A program made the translations under genes and the position numbers. The notes beneath the pieces were generated by a model. It was not told the origin of the DNA and did no database searches. It was given only the letters and a program-made list of their open reading frames with translations. Of a stretch of DNA of 23,157 nucleotides, positions 781 to 19,327 are shown in pieces. Numbering within the stretch: the first letter of the stretch is position 1; each line of letters begins with the position of its first letter. The stretch comes from a virus: the IMG/VR virus record IMGVR_UViG_3300012931_000076, positions 1 to 23,157 of that record; one strand, given 5' to 3'.

Positions 781-785
781 TAAAA

Positions 786-817
786 TATCTAGCAAAATAG
801 AAAAAATATTCTATAAT
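786..817 (+). promoter_or_regulatory. Phage promoter, copy 1 of 3
   Basis: TATCTAGCAAAA (786-797), 14 bases, then TATAAT (812-817) preceded by ATATTC. The same two blocks with the same spacing recur at 4860-4891 and 9767-9798, each time in a gap just before a gene with a strong SD. TATAAT is a consensus -10; the usual -35 TTGACA is absent and the conserved upstream block sits where a -35 element would be. It would drive the leader frame, the Pth2-like gene and the suppressor tRNA. Confidence 0.85.
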
Positions 818-855
818 ATTAATATAAAGTAATTCTAATAAGGAGGGTTGTATCT

Positions 856-915
856 ATGTCATAGGTAAAACCAAGAAAATTTGATGGTGGATAGATAAAC
901 ATTCGTCCCCCATAA
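856..915 (+). CDS. Leader microORF with two in-frame TAG codons
   Basis: The ATG at 856 lies 9 bases after GGAGG (842-846), one of the better ribosome sites in the window, about 30 bases downstream of the expected promoter 1 start point. Read normally it is Met-Ser-stop (TAG at 862-864). If TAG is read through, the frame runs 19 codons to a TAA at 913-915, with a second TAG at 892-894; with Gln at both, the peptide would be MSQVKPRKFDGGQINIRPP. An amber-suppressor tRNA lies 600 bases downstream in the same unit. A leader that senses suppressor activity, or a short peptide made only when TAG is read, are inferences. Which amino acid is inserted cannot be told. It could also be chance. Confidence 0.4.
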
Positions 916-969
916 TATCACATCCTCAACTTAATAATTTATAATAACAAATTTTAGGAGGATCTTATT

Positions 970-1281
970 ATGGGAGAAAAAATGATAGAATTAAAGAACT
1001 GGTTAAAATCTGCCGGTATAGAAATACGGATATTAAAAAATACGCATAAGGATAATCAAAGAAATCATAAGTTCAATATTCATACCTTGTATGATTTAAA
1101 TAGCTTACAAAGAGAATATAGACATAAACACATTGCTTATTCAGAATTGCGAGGAAAGACTAGAGACCAAATAGAAAAACCGAGACAAGGTAACGAGCCA
1201 AGCGAATCACTAATCCAGAAATTCAAGGATGAGTATAGAGAAGAAGAAACTATATGTATTAGTGCGCAAAGACTTGGATAA
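970..1281 (+). CDS. Small charged protein of unknown function
   Basis: 103 residues, ATG at 970 eight bases after AGGAGGA (956-962). The protein is strongly charged, with many Lys, Arg, His and Glu and no membrane segment. No family recognised. Its last 17 codons overlap the Pth2-like gene, which starts at 1229 in the +1 frame; the C-terminal residues there look like an out-of-frame reading of that gene rather than a domain. The overlap suggests translational coupling. A +1 frameshift fusion is possible, since the downstream frame is open from 1214, but no clear slip site is seen. Confidence 0.6.
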   Translation: MGEKMIELKNWLKSAGIEIRILKNTHKDNQRNHKFNIHTLYDLNSLQREYRHKHIAYSELRGKTRDQIEKPRQGNEPSESLIQKFKDEYREEETICISAQRLG

Positions 1282-1528
1282 AAGTTATCAAGCGGTTCAG
1301 GCCGGTCATGCGGTGGCTGAATGGTTACTACATGACCAGTCTTGGCGTAATAACACACTAGTTTATTTAGGAGTGGATAATGAAGATTCGTTAGTTTATT
1401 GGTCTCAAAAATTGAGTTTTAAGGGAATTAAATATGTAGGTTTTAGAGAACCTGATATAGGAAATGAGTTAACTGCAATAGCGGCTCATACTGACCATAA
1501 GATATTTAATAAACTTAAACTTTTATGA
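1229..1528 (+). CDS. Pth2-like peptidyl-tRNA hydrolase
   Basis: 99 residues. The N-terminal strand and helix fit the Pth2 family: KLYVLVRKDL followed by QAVQAGHAVAEW (family pattern VVRxDL...GKxAAQxxHA). A later REPDIGNELTAIA segment fits the EPD...TAIA region of short phage and bacterial members. Pth2 enzymes cleave the ester bond of peptidyl-tRNA released from stalled or prematurely ended translation, recycling the tRNA. The family's usual Lys before the AQ/VQ helix is replaced (Ser-Tyr-Gln), so activity should be tested rather than assumed. The start is the only ATG after an in-frame TAA at 1211; its SD is weak, and translation probably depends on the overlapping gene. The TGA stop at 1526-1528 directly abuts the first base of the suppressor tRNA, so the two form one transcript. 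Confidence 0.7.
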   Translation: MSIEKKKLYVLVRKDLDKSYQAVQAGHAVAEWLLHDQSWRNNTLVYLGVDNEDSLVYWSQKLSFKGIKYVGFREPDIGNELTAIAAHTDHKIFNKLKLL

Positions 1529-1601
1529 TCGTGTGTTGCCGGTCTGGTGCAGGCGGAGAACTCTAAATTCTTCAAGGCGGGTTCAATTCCCGCCACACGA
1601 A
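1529..1601 (+). tRNA. Amber suppressor tRNA, anticodon CTA
   Basis: A full cloverleaf can be folded by eye. The acceptor stem is TCGTGTG (1529-1535) with CACACGA (1594-1600), seven perfect pairs. The D stem is GCC (1538-1540) with GGC (1552-1554) around an 11-base loop containing GG. The anticodon stem is 1556-1560 with 1568-1572, and the loop CTCTAAA (1561-1567) puts T at 33, CTA at 34-36 and A at 37. The T arm is GCGGG-TTCAATT-CCCGC (1577-1593). The discriminator is A1601 and CCA is not encoded. CTA reads the stop codon UAG. The D arm is unusual (three pairs, G where A14 is expected). G1555 can pair with C1573, extending the anticodon stem to six pairs and leaving a 3-base variable loop. 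The charging amino acid cannot be told from sequence. Confidence 0.87.
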
Positions 1602-4857: not shown

Positions 4858-4859
4858 AA

Positions 4860-4891
4860 TATCTAGCAAAAGTCTATTTATATTCTATAAT
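4860..4891 (+). promoter_or_regulatory. Phage promoter, copy 2 of 3
   Basis: TATCTAGCAAAA (4860-4871), 14 bases, TATAAT (4886-4891) preceded by TATTC. The intervening bases differ from copies 1 and 3 (GTCTATTT instead of an A-rich run), so the two boxes rather than the whole segment are conserved. Transcription should begin near 4898, giving a leader of about 40 bases before the ATG at 4937. Confidence 0.85.
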
Positions 4892-4936
4892 ACTAACGTA
4901 GATATGACCACGATATTTTGGATAAGGAGGTGCCTT

Positions 4937-5902: not shown

Positions 5903-5965
5903 GCCCTCTTTTATAGGGCTTATCAGCCCTCTTTTATAGGGCTTATCAGCCCTCTTTTATAGGGC
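5899..5965 (+). repeat. Three tandem 23-bp hairpins
   Basis: The unit AGCCCTCTTTTATAGGGC plus TTATC is repeated exactly at 5902-5924 and 5925-5947, with a partial third copy at 5948-5965. Each copy folds as AGCCCT-7-base loop-AGGGCT; the first has a 9-bp stem, ATAAGCCCT (5899-5907) with AGGGCTTAT (5915-5923). Neighbouring copies can instead pair across the junction (AGGGCT-TATC-AGCCCT), so two alternative folds exist. No T-run follows the last stem, so it may be an inefficient terminator, an RNase processing site or a 3' end stabiliser at the end of the promoter 2 unit. Confidence 0.75.
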
Positions 5966-5992
5966 ATTGAATATTACAAAGGAATATAGCAA

Positions 5993-9743: not shown

Positions 9744-9766
9744 ATAAACTAACTTAGTGGAGATAT

Positions 9767-9798
9767 TATCTAGCAAAATCAGAAAAATATTCTATAAT
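9767..9798 (+). promoter_or_regulatory. Phage promoter, copy 3 of 3
   Basis: TATCTAGCAAAA (9767-9778), 14 bases, TATAAT (9793-9798) preceded by ATATTC. AAAATATTCTATAATAT is identical to copy 1. The start point should lie near 9805, about 20 bases before the ATG at 9827. It would drive the long run of genes through the terminase. Confidence 0.85.
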
Positions 9799-9826
9799 AT
9801 AGATGTAAAGGAAAAGGGGGTATTAA

Positions 9827-12350: not shown

Positions 12351-13070
12351 ATGGGAAAACGCCTTACTTTATCGTATGTAAAGGAATCATTTGCAAAGGA
12401 AGATTATATTTTGCTTAATGACACTTATATAAATGCCAGACATAAGTTAGATTACACATGTTCAAATGGGCATACGCACTCCATTACTTGGGGTAATTGG
12501 CATTTAGGTTGTAGATGTCCTATTTGTAGTGGTGTTAGTAGTCCTTCTATTGAGAAGATTAAAGAGAAGTTTTTATTAGAGGGTTATAGATTGTTATCAA
12601 CCGAATATGTTAATGCTCATAGTAGATTAATGTATATATGCCCTAATAATCACATAGATAGTATAAGCATGGCAAATTGGAATTTAGGCTATAGATGTAA
12701 AAAATGCCATATTGATAAAATAAAAGGATCTGGTAATAATGCCTGGAAAGGTGGAATAACCCCACTAATAAAACAAATAAGAAATTATATTAGAGATATG
12801 AAGTGGCATATAAAAGTACTTACACGCGATAATTGTACCTGTAATATTTGTGGTTTTGTAGGATACAAAGGATATAGACTGCACGCACATCACATAGTAC
12901 CTTTTGCAGACTTAATACAATTATATGATATAAATAGTTTAGAAAAGGCTATGGCATGCAAAGAATTATTAGATATATCCAATGGAATTACACTATGTGA
13001 ATCCTGTCATAAAAAAGTTCACAGATATAAAAATAAAAAATTTGATGAAAGAGGGTATATAAATGGCTAA
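12351..13070 (+). CDS. Free-standing HNH homing endonuclease, copy A
   Basis: 239 residues. Two N-terminal repeats of about 58 residues (about 10-60 and 70-120) share the plan YILLNDTYINARHKLDYTC..GH...W..W..GCRCPIC, each with a C-x-x-x-H...C-x2-C zinc-like site; they probably bind DNA. The C-terminal nuclease has C164-x2-C167, the HNH core AHHIVP (His180/His181), Asn211, C216-x2-C219 and H220/H224. Such genes cut and copy themselves into homologous sites. It starts directly after the preceding stop with a poor SD and overlaps the start of the next gene, fitting insertion into an older gene pair. It is a paralogue of the 13891 gene. Confidence 0.9.
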   Translation: MGKRLTLSYVKESFAKEDYILLNDTYINARHKLDYTCSNGHTHSITWGNWHLGCRCPICSGVSSPSIEKIKEKFLLEGYRLLSTEYVNAHSRLMYICPNNHIDSISMANWNLGYRCKKCHIDKIKGSGNNAWKGGITPLIKQIRNYIRDMKWHIKVLTRDNCTCNICGFVGYKGYRLHAHHIVPFADLIQLYDINSLEKAMACKELLDISNGITLCESCHKKVHRYKNKKFDERGYING

Positions 13071-13307: not shown

Positions 13308-13889
13308 ATGGAATTAAATGATAGGTTGGATTTATTTAAGAATGAGTTGAAGTTGATTGCTAACAAGCAAGTCAAAGATTTTACAAAAGAATGTATTAAT
13401 ATTGCACCTGATTATGTATTTGAAGATTGCCCTTCAAGTTCTTCAGGTAAGTTTCATCCAATTGATGAATTGGGTGGAGATGGAACGATTATTCATACTA
13501 AGCGAGTTTTTACAATTGCTTATGAGTTGTCAAGAGGATTTGATTGCGAAAATCATAGAGACGAGATATGCTCTGCGGCTTTGTTACATGACATGGCTAA
13601 GCAGGGATTAGTTTCTAATGGACATACAGTAAAAGACCACCCTCAGATAATGGCTAAATTAATTGCTGAAGTATACAACGATAGTTTCAAAAGTAAAATG
13701 GGAAGAGAATCAGCTAATATTATTTATTGGTGCGTAGAAAAACACTATGGACCATGGAGTGTGAATTATGGAGGAAAACTAATGTCCTCATATACTCAAG
13801 AAGAACTTTGTGTTTACACAGCAGATTATATTGCATCGAAAAGATTTATATCGGTAGATCATATACGCAAAGATGGTATGGGAATTTAG
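13308..13889 (+). CDS. HD-domain phosphohydrolase
   Basis: 193 residues. The metal-binding pattern of the HD superfamily is present: His63 (IIHTKRV), His94-Asp95 (LLHDMAKQG), His111 (DHPQIM), His146 (EKHYGPW) and Asp173 (TADYIAS). Members hydrolyse phosphate esters of nucleotides (for example dNTPs, 5'-nucleotides, or cyclic and alarmone nucleotides). With a dNMP kinase two genes upstream, a role in nucleotide metabolism is plausible; the exact substrate cannot be read from the motifs. It ends in TAG (13887-13889) with an in-frame TAA two codons further. Confidence 0.82.
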   Translation: MELNDRLDLFKNELKLIANKQVKDFTKECINIAPDYVFEDCPSSSSGKFHPIDELGGDGTIIHTKRVFTIAYELSRGFDCENHRDEICSAALLHDMAKQGLVSNGHTVKDHPQIMAKLIAEVYNDSFKSKMGRESANIIYWCVEKHYGPWSVNYGGKLMSSYTQEELCVYTADYIASKRFISVDHIRKDGMGI

Positions 13890-13890
13890 T

Positions 13891-14574
13891 ATGAATAAAT
13901 ACGACTATGATTATGTATTCAATGAATTTTTGAGCCGAGGATATTTATTATTATCTAAGTCTTATAAGAATGTATATGAAAAGTTGTTATATATTTGTCC
14001 AAATGGCCACAAACATTCTATAGCATATAGACATTTCCATAAAGGGCATGGTTGTTTAAAATGTGTAGGCATAGATAATTCTAAAAGATTTAGAATGGAT
14101 TTTTCTATTATAGAAGATAGTTTTATTTCTAATGGATATGAATTATTAACCACTGAATATATCAATGCTCATCAACAGTTGGAATATAGATATCCTTATG
14201 GGCATAGGCATAGTATGACGTGGAATAATTGGTCTAAGGGATATAGATGTCCTACATGTGACGAGATTAATAGATCAGAAGAAGGGCATTGGAATTGGCG
14301 TGGTGGCATATCATTTGAACCTTATTGTAGAATATTCAAAGATAAGTCTTTCAAAAATTCTATAAAAGCACGTGATAATTATGAATGCCAAAATCCAGAT
14401 TGTTGGCATAAAGATAAAGTATTACATATTCATCATATTGATTACAATAAAAAGAATTGTGATGAAAATAATTTAATTACTTTATGTAGGAGCTGTAATG
14501 CGAGGGCTAATATAAATCGTGAATATTATTTGACATTGTATAGAGATATTTTATCAAAAAGAGGTATTAACTAA
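13891..14574 (+). CDS. Free-standing HNH homing endonuclease, copy B
   Basis: 227 residues from ATG 13891; an in-frame ATG at 13873 would lie inside the HD gene. It has the same architecture as copy A at 12351: two N-terminal repeats (about 8-60 and 70-123), the first with YICPNGHKHS...GCLKC, the second reading YRYPYGHRHSMTW...YRCPTC, so the first Cys of the second site is lost. The C-terminal HNH has C166, C171, the HIHHID core (His181/His182), Asn193/194 and C199-x2-C202. It begins one base after the HD gene's stop. The degenerate second zinc site may alter DNA specificity. Confidence 0.87.
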   Translation: MNKYDYDYVFNEFLSRGYLLLSKSYKNVYEKLLYICPNGHKHSIAYRHFHKGHGCLKCVGIDNSKRFRMDFSIIEDSFISNGYELLTTEYINAHQQLEYRYPYGHRHSMTWNNWSKGYRCPTCDEINRSEEGHWNWRGGISFEPYCRIFKDKSFKNSIKARDNYECQNPDCWHKDKVLHIHHIDYNKKNCDENNLITLCRSCNARANINREYYLTLYRDILSKRGIN

Positions 14575-15770: not shown

Positions 15771-16298
15771 ATGAGCAAACCAGTAGGAAGACCAAAGAAC
15801 CCACCTAAGTTTAAGGATATTCTTTATGAAATTATTCCTTCGGCTTCGTTATTTTCCGAAGACGAGTTGAAGATGTTTAATGGATTGATGGATATTTATC
15901 TCAAAGATTTTGATGAATCACAGTTATCTGCAAATGATCTTGATGACATTATGTCTATATCTACTAATAAAGTTTTGGAAGTTAGACTTCTTCAATCTAT
16001 GCGTAACAATCCTGACATGCAGATAGACGCTTCTGCCGCTATAGAACGCTTAAGAAAACAAACCGACAAATTGAAAGAGAATTTAGCTACCAGACGTAAA
16101 GATAGAGTAGATCCTAAAAAATATAGTGGTATATCTATAGTTGATTTGGCGGTGGCTTTTGACCAGAATAAAAAAGATCATTTACTAAATAAAGTTGCTG
16201 AATACGATGCTGAGAATGAGGCTTTGCTTAACTCCGCGGAGTTAGTAGGTAATAGGAATGACCAAGATGCTGAAGTATTTGATGTAGAGGAAGAATAA
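15771..16298 (+). CDS. Probable terminase small subunit
   Basis: 175 residues from ATG 15771 with AAGGAC ahead. It starts with a basic Gly-Arg-Pro segment (MSKPVGRPKNPPKF), contains helical stretches and a central acidic region, and ends in an acidic tail with DVEEE. The main support is position: its stop overlaps the TerL start (TAATG), the standard TerS-TerL arrangement. TerS recognises phage DNA and forms a ring that regulates TerL. Sequence similarity among TerS proteins is low, so the call is moderate. The preceding NUMOD3-like gene also has a GRP-type N-terminus. Confidence 0.6.
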   Translation: MSKPVGRPKNPPKFKDILYEIIPSASLFSEDELKMFNGLMDIYLKDFDESQLSANDLDDIMSISTNKVLEVRLLQSMRNNPDMQIDASAAIERLRKQTDKLKENLATRRKDRVDPKKYSGISIVDLAVAFDQNKKDHLLNKVAEYDAENEALLNSAELVGNRNDQDAEVFDVEEE

Positions 16299-19200
16299 TG
16301 CCATCTATTGATATATATAGTGATATGGAGAATCTGCTCGACATGGGGGCAGACATGATTCAATTTTATAGGAATAACCCCTGTATCGCCGCATATGATT
16401 TACTTAAAGTGGATTTGGCTCCTATTCAGCGCATAGTTCTGAACGATATGTGGTTTAAGAATTATACAATTACAATAGCCACTCGTGGTTTTGGGAAAAG
16501 TCAATCCATAGATAGTTTATCATATGTATATGGTAAAGGATTAAATTATCTATATGAATTTTTGCCTAAAATCCCATCTTATTTAAAAGACGGCTATGAC
16601 GATGCGATATCTTGGCAAGATGACATATATACTTCTGACGGATTTCATCCCATAAAAAGGGTCTCATTAGAAAAGGGTATAAAAGGACTATGCTTAACTA
16701 CTCAAAATGGTTTTGAAAATAAAGGTAGTTATCATCATAGACTATTGACTATAAATAATACGGGCGAGTTTATATATAAAAGATTAGATGAATTTAATAT
16801 AGACGATTATGTTTGTATACAGCGTGATCAACAGGTATTTGGAGATGGTGTGGTTTCAGACGAAGACGCTTATCTTATAGGTTTGTTTATAGGTGATGGT
16901 CATATTAAAACCAAGAATGCTATAACTATAACTTCAGAAGACGCCTATATAAAATCTTTCTGTATATCGTATTGTAAAAAGAATAATATATTATATAGGA
17001 TAGATGATGACAAAAGAACTAAAAATACTTCTAAAATATGTTTTAAAAAATTTGATTATTTTTTTGAGAAGTATAATATAAAAAGAGACCTTTCATATTT
17101 TAAAGAAGTGCCATATACCATAAGATCTTCTAATAGAAAAGCTCAATTACAATTTTTAAGAGGGTATTTTGATACCGACGGCACAGTTAATTCCAGTAAT
17201 GGTGGAGTTTCGTGCTGTTCTACTTCTTATAAATTGCTAAAAGAAATTCAACTATTACTGCTTAATTTTGGAATAGTTTCGAGAGTTAGAAGAAAGAAAA
17301 CAAAATCAAGATTTGGAAAAGCTTACTTATTAGATATGTTTTTTGAGGACGCTTTAAAATTTAAGAAGTTGATAGGTTTTAATTTAAGTAGAAAACAGAT
17401 AATATTAAATAATTATTTTGATACAAGAAAAGTAAATCCTAATAAAGACATTATTCCCTATGTAAAAGATTTATGTGTTTATATTTCAAAACGCTATAGA
17501 GAATTAAATGCTAAAAATAAATTTAGTGGAAAATTGCCTACGCTGAAAACTTATAAATGGAACACCACCAATTACACATACAGCAGATTAGATACATTCA
17601 TAAAAGATATTAATAAATTAATGGTAGCCGGATATAAATTTGACCAGGACTGCATAAATGTTTTAGATATAATTACTAATATAAATAATAGGCAATATTA
17701 TTTTGATAAAATAAAACTTATAGAAAATTGGCAAGGTGATTGCTATGATTTTGAAATGGATATGCCTAATGGTGTAGAACCTAACTACTTTACTAATGGT
17801 TTTATAAATCACAATACTTTTATTCTAGGTGTTAATGCTGCTTTACACGCTTTATTATATCCTGGATACAGAGTAGGATTATTGTCTCCTTCTTTTAGGC
17901 AGTCTAAAATGATTTTTGCCGAGATAGAAAAGATATACAATAAGTCATCTATTCTCAGAGAAGCATGCGAAAAGCGCCCAGTAAGAGGTGCTGATACTTG
18001 TAATTTAAGATTTAAGGGCACTGATTTATCCAACGGTAGTTTTATCGAAGCTCTACCTGTAGGTGTTGATGGTGCAAAGATAAGAGGATCGCGTTTCTAT
18101 TTGATAGAAATAGATGAGTTGGCTCAAATGCCTTCTGATATTATTGATATGGTTATTCGTCCTATGGCAGCTGTTGTGTCAGAGCCTATGCAAAAAGTTA
18201 GGGAGATACAACGCATAGAACAACTTATAAAGGAAGGATTAGCCACTGAAGATGATTTGTTAGAGGAGTCTGCTAATAAAATGGTGATGACTTCTTCTGG
18301 ATATTTCAAGTTCAATCACATGTGGCATAGAATGAAAACTTATTGGAAGGCTATAAAGGAAGACGGTCGTAAGAAAAGTGAATACGCTGTCCATCAAATT
18401 CCATATAATAGGCTTCCTAAAGGATTCTTAGACATGAAGAATGTCAATGAAGCAAAAAGAACCATGTCTAGTATTGAGTTTATGATGGAATATGAAGCAT
18501 CTATGGTATCAGATAGCGAAGGATTTTTCAAGGCATCTCTATTAGATACATGTACGCGTGGTAGTGATTTCACCATAAAAACCCATGGAGAGCCTGGTAA
18601 AGAATATGTGATTGGTATAGACCCTAACCAAGGCGGATCTGCGTTATTTGGTATAGTAGTAGTAGAACTTGGTCATCCAAATAAAGTGGTTTATGTAAAG
18701 GGTTTAAAAAGTCAGGCTGTTCAGGATATGACTAAATCTATTCATCGTATAATTAAGAATTTTAATATAGTTAGAATTTATATGGATGCTCAGGGTGGTG
18801 GTAGCGCTATAAAAGATTTATTGGCAGAGGGATATAATAATGAGACGCCCATCCTTGATATGGACGACGATATTACTAGATATAAAACAGGTCGCAGGAT
18901 ATTGCGACTTGTCAATTTTGCACCGGTATGGATTTCAGACGCTAATTTTAATGCTTTATCCTTATTAGAAAATAATAGGTTACGATTTCCTGAATCACCT
19001 AGAAGTAACTCAGAGATAGATGAGAAACTCTATGAGGATGTTAGGCTACTTAAATCTCAGATGTTGAATATAGTAGTTACAGAAACCCAACGAGGTGTAA
19101 GGCACTTTGATACGCCTAAAAAGGGTCAAAATAAAGACTTGTATTCAGCTATATTACTTGCATCTTTTGGTGTTACAGAATTAAATAGGGAGTCTGATAT

Positions 19201-19327
19201 TGTTCCTATGAATTTAGAACCTGAAGGTTTGATTAGACCGCATGCCGCTGGCGCGCATTTTACTCGTCAGATTGGTGGTGGCGATACTGAATACCTAAGT
19301 AAAGCTGTTTTACATCGCAAGATTTAA
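16298..19327 (+). CDS. terL: Terminase large subunit precursor with intein
   Basis: 1009 residues as translated; removing the intein (residues 68-506) leaves a 570-residue TerL of normal length. The ATPase has Walker A TRGFGK/T restored exactly by splicing (GFGK + TFILGV), and Walker B YLIEIDELAQ with D606/E607. The C-terminal nuclease has D775 in IGIDPNQGG, D830 in YMDAQGGG and D947 in NKDLYSAIL, the three acidic metal ligands. It cuts concatemeric DNA and pumps it into the prohead through the portal. It overlaps TerS by one base. Unspliced, its P-loop is split, so packaging depends on protein splicing. Confidence 0.96.
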   Translation: MPSIDIYSDMENLLDMGADMIQFYRNNPCIAAYDLLKVDLAPIQRIVLNDMWFKNYTITIATRGFGKSQSIDSLSYVYGKGLNYLYEFLPKIPSYLKDGYDDAISWQDDIYTSDGFHPIKRVSLEKGIKGLCLTTQNGFENKGSYHHRLLTINNTGEFIYKRLDEFNIDDYVCIQRDQQVFGDGVVSDEDAYLIGLFIGDGHIKTKNAITITSEDAYIKSFCISYCKKNNILYRIDDDKRTKNTSKICFKKFDYFFEKYNIKRDLSYFKEVPYTIRSSNRKAQLQFLRGYFDTDGTVNSSNGGVSCCSTSYKLLKEIQLLLLNFGIVSRVRRKKTKSRFGKAYLLDMFFEDALKFKKLIGFNLSRKQIILNNYFDTRKVNPNKDIIPYVKDLCVYISKRYRELNAKNKFSGKLPTLKTYKWNTTNYTYSRLDTFIKDINKLMVAGYKFDQDCINVLDIITNINNRQYYFDKIKLIENWQGDCYDFEMDMPNGVEPNYFTNGFINHNTFILGVNAALHALLYPGYRVGLLSPSFRQSKMIFAEIEKIYNKSSILREACEKRPVRGADTCNLRFKGTDLSNGSFIEALPVGVDGAKIRGSRFYLIEIDELAQMPSDIIDMVIRPMAAVVSEPMQKVREIQRIEQLIKEGLATEDDLLEESANKMVMTSSGYFKFNHMWHRMKTYWKAIKEDGRKKSEYAVHQIPYNRLPKGFLDMKNVNEAKRTMSSIEFMMEYEASMVSDSEGFFKASLLDTCTRGSDFTIKTHGEPGKEYVIGIDPNQGGSALFGIVVVELGHPNKVVYVKGLKSQAVQDMTKSIHRIIKNFNIVRIYMDAQGGGSAIKDLLAEGYNNETPILDMDDDITRYKTGRRILRLVNFAPVWISDANFNALSLLENNRLRFPESPRSNSEIDEKLYEDVRLLKSQMLNIVVTETQRGVRHFDTPKKGQNKDLYSAILLASFGVTELNRESDIVPMNLEPEGLIRPHAAGAHFTRQIGGGDTEYLSKAVLHRKI
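16499..17815 (+). mobile_element. Intein with LAGLIDADG homing endonuclease in terL
   Basis: 439 residues inserted between Lys67 and the Thr that completes Walker A. The intein starts with Ser (SQSIDSLSYV, block A), has a block B-like SYHHRLLTI followed by LDEFNIDDYVCI, and ends with the splice blocks YDFEMDMPNG and NYFTNGFINHN followed by Thr as the +1 nucleophile. The endonuclease has two LAGLIDADG-type motifs, YLIGLFIGDG (192-201) and LRGYFDTDG (287-295). Ser1, His-Asn at the end and Thr+1 all allow standard splicing. The Walker A site is a well-known intein insertion point in terminases. Confidence 0.94.

Follow-up and report, generated by a model that had tools for sequence, protein, structure and literature searches.

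Why should a phage place an amber-suppressor tRNA immediately behind a gene for a protein that resembles peptidyl-tRNA hydrolase 2 (PTH2)? The pair lies on a 23 kb virus fragment (IMG/VR record IMGVR_UViG_3300012931_000076), of which we analyzed the whole stretch of 23,157 nucleotides (nt), here called the window. In comparisons across phages, the tRNA, the hydrolase gene and a third gene, orf970, emerge as one module whose protein expression appears to need the decoding of UAG, and we propose that this cassette is probably a self-sensing nonsense-suppression operon. The linkage, the gating codons and the hairpins that hide a Shine-Dalgarno (SD) sequence come from comparative sequence analysis and folding, whereas read-through and the substrate of the enzyme are what we infer from there. 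A sequence-only reading of the window had already taken the pair for a translation-control cassette, with the hydrolase removing failed products that arise when stop codons are read. Our data support a recurrent, functionally coupled cassette, but it is not a clean-up after genome-wide recoding, because most of the phages that carry it use the standard code. That reading had also overlooked the UAG gating of the cassette's own protein genes, as well as the third gene (970–1281).

An amber-suppressor tRNA abuts the PTH2-like gene

The only tRNA that ARAGORN identified in the whole window lies on the + strand at 1529–1601 and has the anticodon CTA, and Rfam RF00005 covers the same bases (46.9 bits, cut-off 29). 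The molecule is a complete cloverleaf with a CUA anticodon. Its acceptor, D and T stems comprise 7, 3 and 5 bp, the variable loop 3–4 nt, and its ends are U1-A72 with discriminator A73. The anticodon loop reads C-T-C-T-A-A-A, so the T33 and A37 noted in the sequence-only reading are correct, as is the gapless junction described there: the open reading frame (ORF) at 1229–1528 ends in TGA at 1526–1528, and 0 nt separate it from the tRNA.

ARAGORN labels such a tRNA 'tRNA-Pyl', which denotes the CTA anticodon and nothing more. A pyrrolysine identity was rejected because the anticodon loop has the normal 7 nt, two bases separate the acceptor stem from the D stem and the variable loop is ordinary, and no pyrrolysyl-tRNA synthetase (PylRS) was recognised among the ORFs of the window. 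Judged from U1-A72, the suppressor of the window may be glutamine-like in identity; this pair is present in 15 of 23 phage tRNA-Gln(TTG) and rare among the other tRNAs examined. A single amino-acid identity shared by the suppressors was rejected, as their acceptor stems vary and their discriminators are A (49), T (28) or G (26). Three genomes with Pth2-like genes (L088, LR756504.1; L165; L210) contain tRNAs whose anticodon loop has 8 nt and is called as (tcta) or (ttca), a stop anticodon plus one base; these are perhaps expanded-loop suppressors.

Pth2-like genes are linked to suppressor tRNAs

Pth2-like genes were gathered from IMG/VR and phage records by protein alone, and their flanks were run through ARAGORN. 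Because sequences in a broad alignment diverged too far for pattern scanning, three sub-alignments were used instead. Among the 126 non-redundant clusters obtained at 90% amino acid identity, a suppressor tRNA on the same strand was found within 100 bp in 41, within 1 kb in 80 and within 3 kb in 97. Without exception, the 115 suppressor tRNAs (CTA 108, TTA 6, TCA 1) share the strand of the Pth2-like gene. Cultured carriers include Acinetobacter phage ME3 and the mycobacteriophages IkeLoa and Myrna. For L091, L093 and L160, which lack a nearby suppressor, one was found in another part of the genome.

The reverse test compared IMG/VR records picked by a CTA anticodon-arm pattern (80 records) with records picked by the matching Met-CAT pattern (78 records). 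A Pth2-like gene was present in 37/80 of the former vs 3/78 of the latter (Fisher p = 1.4e-10), and one of these three has a CTA tRNA of its own 46 bp off. The figure of 37/80 is conservative, since ARAGORN accepts just 59 of the 80 CTA matches as tRNAs. Split by size, the difference was significant below 50 kb (11/31 vs 0/48) and at 50–150 kb (13/28 vs 1/23), and numbers were too small for a verdict above 150 kb (13/21 vs 2/7). Both directions of the test agree, and the linkage is not chance. The association pointed out in the sequence-only reading recurs among relatives, the opposite of two genes that are never linked.

Linkage could still reflect mere co-location, with translation genes gathered in tRNA islands and no functional link between them, as the Pth genes within mycobacteriophage tRNA arrays would suggest (PMC5966550). 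In loci with at least 4 tRNAs (n = 57), however, the tRNA nearest to the gene is the suppressor in 41, where 7.1 are expected, and in many loci the suppressor is the sole tRNA. Together with the rarity of the gene in Met-picked records and the matching stops inside the gene itself, described below, this leaves co-location a negligible probability, the lowest of the explanations weighed here.

Amber codons gate the hydrolase gene

In 62 clusters the hydrolase gene carries an early gate, that is, an ATG followed by 1–7 codons and a TAG, with no later start codon. Under a strict definition of this pattern, the early stop of the Pth2-like gene is TAG in 46 cases, TAA in 1 and TGA in 0, whereas the remaining ORFs in these 1.83 Mb give counts of 22, 31 and 36, respectively. 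As these other ORFs have no TAG excess, the early amber codon is specific to the Pth2-like gene, and no further UAG-gated genes above chance were detected in the same loci (1.83 Mb). Internal in-frame stops show the same bias (TAG 12, TAA 0, TGA 0). Taking all forms together, an amber gate is present in 89 of the 126 clusters, and in 77 of the 95 with a CTA tRNA nearby; the hydrolase gene of the window itself contains no in-frame stop. The sole early TAA belongs to L217, a TTA-suppressor phage with an MT-TAA gate that is nested in an early-TAG/CTA clade, and in which codon and anticodon changed together. The gating TAG is followed by a purine in 73 of 74 cases (background 58%), and purines at position +4 are known to increase amber suppression (PMC6266110). 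Where an SD is visible, it is mostly spaced for the ATG that precedes the TAG. The clusters are related, and a poorly resolved tree requires no fewer than 28 changes of gate state, so the clusters should not be counted as independent events; internal controls are provided by the TAG:TAA:TGA and +4 contrasts.

These TAG codons might go unread, either because translation starts at a non-ATG codon behind them or because the genes are decaying. Ile or Val codons, conceivably rare starts, do follow the early TAG in 49 of the 62 clusters. Set against this are the near-exclusive use of TAG (46:1:0 and 12:0:0), the switch to TAA where the suppressor is TTA, an SD spacing that suits the ATG and the +4 purines; moreover, internal TAGs lie in the middle of the conserved domain and conservation is gene-wide. 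We consider unread TAGs very improbable. In L225, L227, L229 and L230 (cluster C mycobacteriophages and kin), ATG or GTG is followed by TAG and then by GTG or ATG, which may be a minimal gate or a leftover.

Alternatively, the phages could simply be recoded at TAG (code 15 type), such that any gene may hold this codon. This is the case for the Lak loci, to which clear TAG recoding is confined. Apart from high-GC loci, where gains in ORF length may be artefactual, the others read as standard code: they gain little in ORF length, TAG still terminates their genes, and early TAGs are not in excess in other ORFs. Genome-wide TAG recoding was rejected on these grounds, and we regard it as an extremely improbable source of the gates. 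In the window, TAG is the stop of 3 of 37 genes, reading it as glutamine gives no gain in ORF length, and conserved genes do not contain in-frame TAG throughout, as they would under code 15. Suppression of the TAG stops at 2810, 10737 and 13889 would lengthen those proteins, by extensions that look trivial.

A leader peptide with UAG codons precedes orf970

The clade of the window carries its gate in a leader peptide: in the window, the UAG codons lie in a short leader ORF that has a good SD and ends in Pro-Pro-stop (Table 1). The end of this leader and the bases just beyond it form the 5' arm of a predicted hairpin, the 3' arm of which holds the SD (956–962) and the start codon (970–972) of orf970. 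Counterparts of the leader were found in L096, L531, L532 and about 35 more loci, and include (with # for UAG) MT#IKRLDMG#VAKLKPP in L531, MT#IHKMEYG#VARGPP in L096, MT#LNKPP in L156, MK#IKIPP in L121 and MH#VHKPP in L119. Stop-containing Pro-Pro leaders upstream of Pth2-like genes use TAG in 29 cases, TAA in 7 and TGA in 1, compared to 72, 72 and 56 for the same pattern in other sequence, of which the amount was roughly 26-fold larger.

Folding with a ribosome placed on the leader indicated how such a leader could act. When the ribosome was moved from the first UAG to the leader stop, the mean probability that the SD is free rose from 0.15 to 0.58 in 40 leaders, compared to 0.37 to 0.47 in shuffled controls (p = 3e-10), and a ribosome at the leader stop freed the SD in 39 of the 40. 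For the window leader the probability rose from 0.07 to 0.80. By computation, the leader thus has the SD-hiding hairpin opened by ribosome position that defines a leader attenuator, and the orf970 ribosome-binding site is predicted to be exposed solely by a ribosome that has decoded the UAGs. In L531, the contig of the closest terminase relative, the arms CCCCCATAAT/ATTATGGGG and ATCCTC/GAGGA are kept despite differing leader codons. No factor-independent terminator was predicted in the leader.

The promoter-like element upstream of the leader occurs in two further copies (TATCTAGCAAAA...TTCTATAATA), at about 4858–4900 and 9765–9810, with different gene groups downstream. Judged by its sequence, this three-copy element is probably a phage-specific promoter.

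Table 1. Features of the cassette in the window, with positions, strand and basis of assignment
Feature	Position	Strand	Remarks	Basis
Promoter-like element TATCTAGCAAAA-N14-TATAAT	785..817	+	TATAAT at 812-817; inferred promoter	sequence comparison
Shine-Dalgarno AAGGAGGG of leader ORF	840..847	+		sequence
Leader ORF MS-UAG-VKPRKFDGG-UAG-INIRPP-stop	856..915	+	UAG codons: 862-864, 892-894; Pro-Pro-stop: 907-915	
Predicted hairpin, putative translational attenuator	909..974	+		folding
orf970, gene for small all-helical protein	970..1281	+	conserved family; overlaps Pth2-like gene by 53 nt	
PTH2-like (peptidyl-tRNA hydrolase 2 fold) gene	1229..1528	+	divergent phage subfamily	profile, fold, alignment
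Amber-suppressor tRNA	1529..1601	+	CTA at 1563-1565; CCA not encoded	ARAGORN, Rfam, fold

The PTH2-like protein and orf970

The PTH2-like ORF of the window encodes 99 amino acids. Its match to Pfam PTH2 (PF01981) stays below the curated cut-off (17.7 bits, gathering score 23, E = 0.004), and Pfam PTH2 matches 12 of 15 relatives at E ≤ 0.01 (best 9.7e-9). The family profile matches solved Pth2 structures at E = 1.8e-11, and the AlphaFold (AF2) model (predicted local distance difference test, pLDDT, 94.8) gave Pth2 structures as all of its best Foldseek matches, with template modelling (TM) scores of up to 0.81. The Pth2-like assignment made in the sequence-only reading is upheld by profile and model, with the Pfam match of the window protein sub-threshold. 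A cellular origin of the family was rejected: an alignment search of 84,980 cellular genomes returned one match, on a phage-like contig with 18 tRNAs and a CTA tRNA immediately behind the gene. As this sole match sits on a phage-like tRNA-array contig, the family is in practice a phage family. In L091:5449-6300 (Stenotrophomonas phage RAS14), L093:5449-6300 (Xanthomonas phage XacN1) and L160, the protein is longer, with the Pth2-like domain at its C-terminus and, judged by eye, an HD-like domain at its N-terminus. These ORFs start with MK-TAG in L091 and L093 and with MNLA-TAG in L160, and CTA tRNAs are found elsewhere in the genomes.

The orf970 family itself matches neither a Pfam nor a PHROG entry, and Foldseek gave no significant match to its fold. 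A search with orf970 only returned 45 loci, with a Pth2-like gene in 40, a suppressor tRNA in 41 and an amber leader in 29, and all 29 of these leaders use TAG. In L264 (973-1527), orf970-type and Pth2-like domains are joined in a single ORF, a natural fusion that was checked by sequence. Single ORFs in L496, L497, L516 and L517 appear fusion-like by length alone; with L264 they span approximately 185–196 amino acids.

A proposed self-sensing operon

In the mechanism that we propose, transcription from the promoter near 785–817 would yield a single RNA that comprises the leader ORF, orf970, the hydrolase gene and the suppressor tRNA. While suppressor tRNA is scarce, ribosomes would halt at the UAG in codon 3 of the leader, and the hairpin would stay closed over the orf970 ribosome-binding site. 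Both orf970 and the hydrolase, whose gene overlaps orf970 and is probably translationally coupled to it, would then not be made. After the tRNA has been processed and charged and has risen to a level at which two successive UAGs are decoded, ribosomes would arrive at the Pro-Pro-stop; there they would unfold the hairpin and so allow synthesis of both proteins. Two UAGs, as in the window leader, would make for a steep threshold. Other clades appear to use a simpler gate, with the UAG 1–7 codons past the ATG or within the hydrolase gene. Under such UAG gating, hydrolase output would report suppression activity. The most likely targets of the hydrolase, aided by orf970, would be suppressor tRNAs that carry a peptide or an amino acid, or stalled read-through products, and the resulting negative-feedback or clean-up loop would keep suppression tolerable; that the hydrolase limits or cleans up suppression is part of what we infer. 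Chances appear about even that this is a new class of regulator, in which a UAG-licensed, PTH2-derived enzyme hydrolyses suppressor-borne peptidyl- or aminoacyl-tRNA in a closed loop that sets the read-through level during infection.

Several observations weigh against this proposal. Eighteen CTA-linked clusters are ungated by the rules used, some because the locus is cut (e.g. L009), and 4 of the 5 non-Lak TTA/TCA loci lack a matching gate. Despite their early TAG, a genome search found no CTA tRNA in L089 or L144. The hairpin of the window taken singly is unexceptional (z = -1.6), and its support lies in the set. In L531 and L534, leader, orf970 and CTA tRNA are present without a Pth2-like gene; since these loci keep the rest, the module can evidently do without the hydrolase. 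Changes in the active site must also be considered. Of the residues that we take to be catalytic in Pth2 of S. solfataricus (Lys18, Asp86, Thr90 and Thr98), a profile alignment places Tyr, Gln or Leu at the position of the Lys and an invariant Glu74, in a new EPD motif, at that of the Asp; Thr90 has no counterpart and Thr98 is kept as the invariant Thr82. Gln24, His27 and Thr82 are retained, and the phage family lacks the classical set of Pth2 catalytic residues. Because the catalytic Lys and Asp are replaced, the substrate may differ or activity may be lost.

The main rival is a role of the gated proteins that is unrelated to suppression. The gate would then be a timer or competence switch, by which orf970 and the PTH2-like protein appear after the phage tRNAs have accumulated and serve another purpose. 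They might counter host toxins that target tRNA, as Pth does when it removes the TacT-like acetylation of aminoacyl-tRNA, or rescue ribosomes with cleaved tRNAs. The gate itself, which this explanation shares, is well supported, and the altered active site is in keeping with it; Pth undoes the TacT modification in M. tuberculosis (PMC9241777), and a jumbo-phage PTH2 has been proposed to act in ribosome rescue after tRNA cleavage (PMC7824862). The preference for suppressor tRNAs over tRNA arrays generally is left unexplained, and we consider a suppressor-gated effector of this kind unlikely, if a serious competitor to the self-sensing operon.

Relation to known systems

Leader-peptide translational attenuators are known from ermC, tnaC and trp. 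The cassette resembles them in its short leader ORF, in an SD-hiding hairpin that ribosome position opens and in a Pro-Pro-stop terminus, which could slow termination; unlike in these systems, the sensed signal would be UAG suppression by the operon's own tRNA. With the autoregulation of release factor 2 (RF2, prfB) by an in-frame UGA (PMC12421855) it shares an early in-frame stop that reports termination or decoding activity. In contrast to RF2, the stop would be read by a linked suppressor tRNA and not by frameshifting, and the product is hydrolase-like. Phage-borne CTA tRNAs are also known from crAss-like and Lak phages, where suppressor tRNAs serve TAG recoding (PMC10879173; PMC9523058; PMC13037316). 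Unlike those recoding phages, the carriers of the cassette for the most part retain the standard code, and the adjacent UAG target is the cassette's own operon. The PTH2-like protein has the fold (TM 0.81) and the conserved Gln, His and Thr positions in common with known PTH2 proteins (PF01981; 2zv3, 3erj, 1xty, 1q7s; jumbo-phage PTH2, PMC7824862). It differs from them in the replaced Lys, in the change from Asp to Glu within the invariant EPD, in its nearly phage-only distribution, in its coupling to suppressor tRNAs and in its UAG gate.

Already known are phage suppressor tRNAs, jumbo-phage PTH2 (PMC7824862), Pth in mycobacteriophage arrays (PMC5966550), leader attenuation and RF2 autoregulation. 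For the linkage, the UAG gate and the UAG leader, no published report was found in the open-access literature, an absence that is not proof, and a self-sensing control circuit for a changing genetic code is apparently undescribed. The trigger and limits of the phage code switch have been called poorly understood (PMC10879173), and the authors of the XacN1 study found no target for the amber suppressor of that phage (PMC5852040). The cassette would unite sensor, output and signal, namely the UAG leader, the hydrolase with its helper, and the tRNA, within one operon, as a testable circuit. The module occurs in many unrelated phages that are otherwise on the standard code; it would account for the amber suppressors that standard-code phages retain, and it could offer synthetic biology a natural, self-limiting suppression module.

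Other features of the window

Inspection by eye revealed a terminase large subunit ORF of 1009 amino acids at 16298–19327, with an apparent intein that contains a homing-endonuclease-like insert. Two related ORFs (12351–13070 and 13873–14574) with zinc-ribbon repeats and an HNH-like C-terminus, also judged by eye, probably encode homing endonucleases. At 5903–5966, a short inverted repeat (GCCCTCTTTTATAGGGC...) occurs three times in tandem and is terminator-like.
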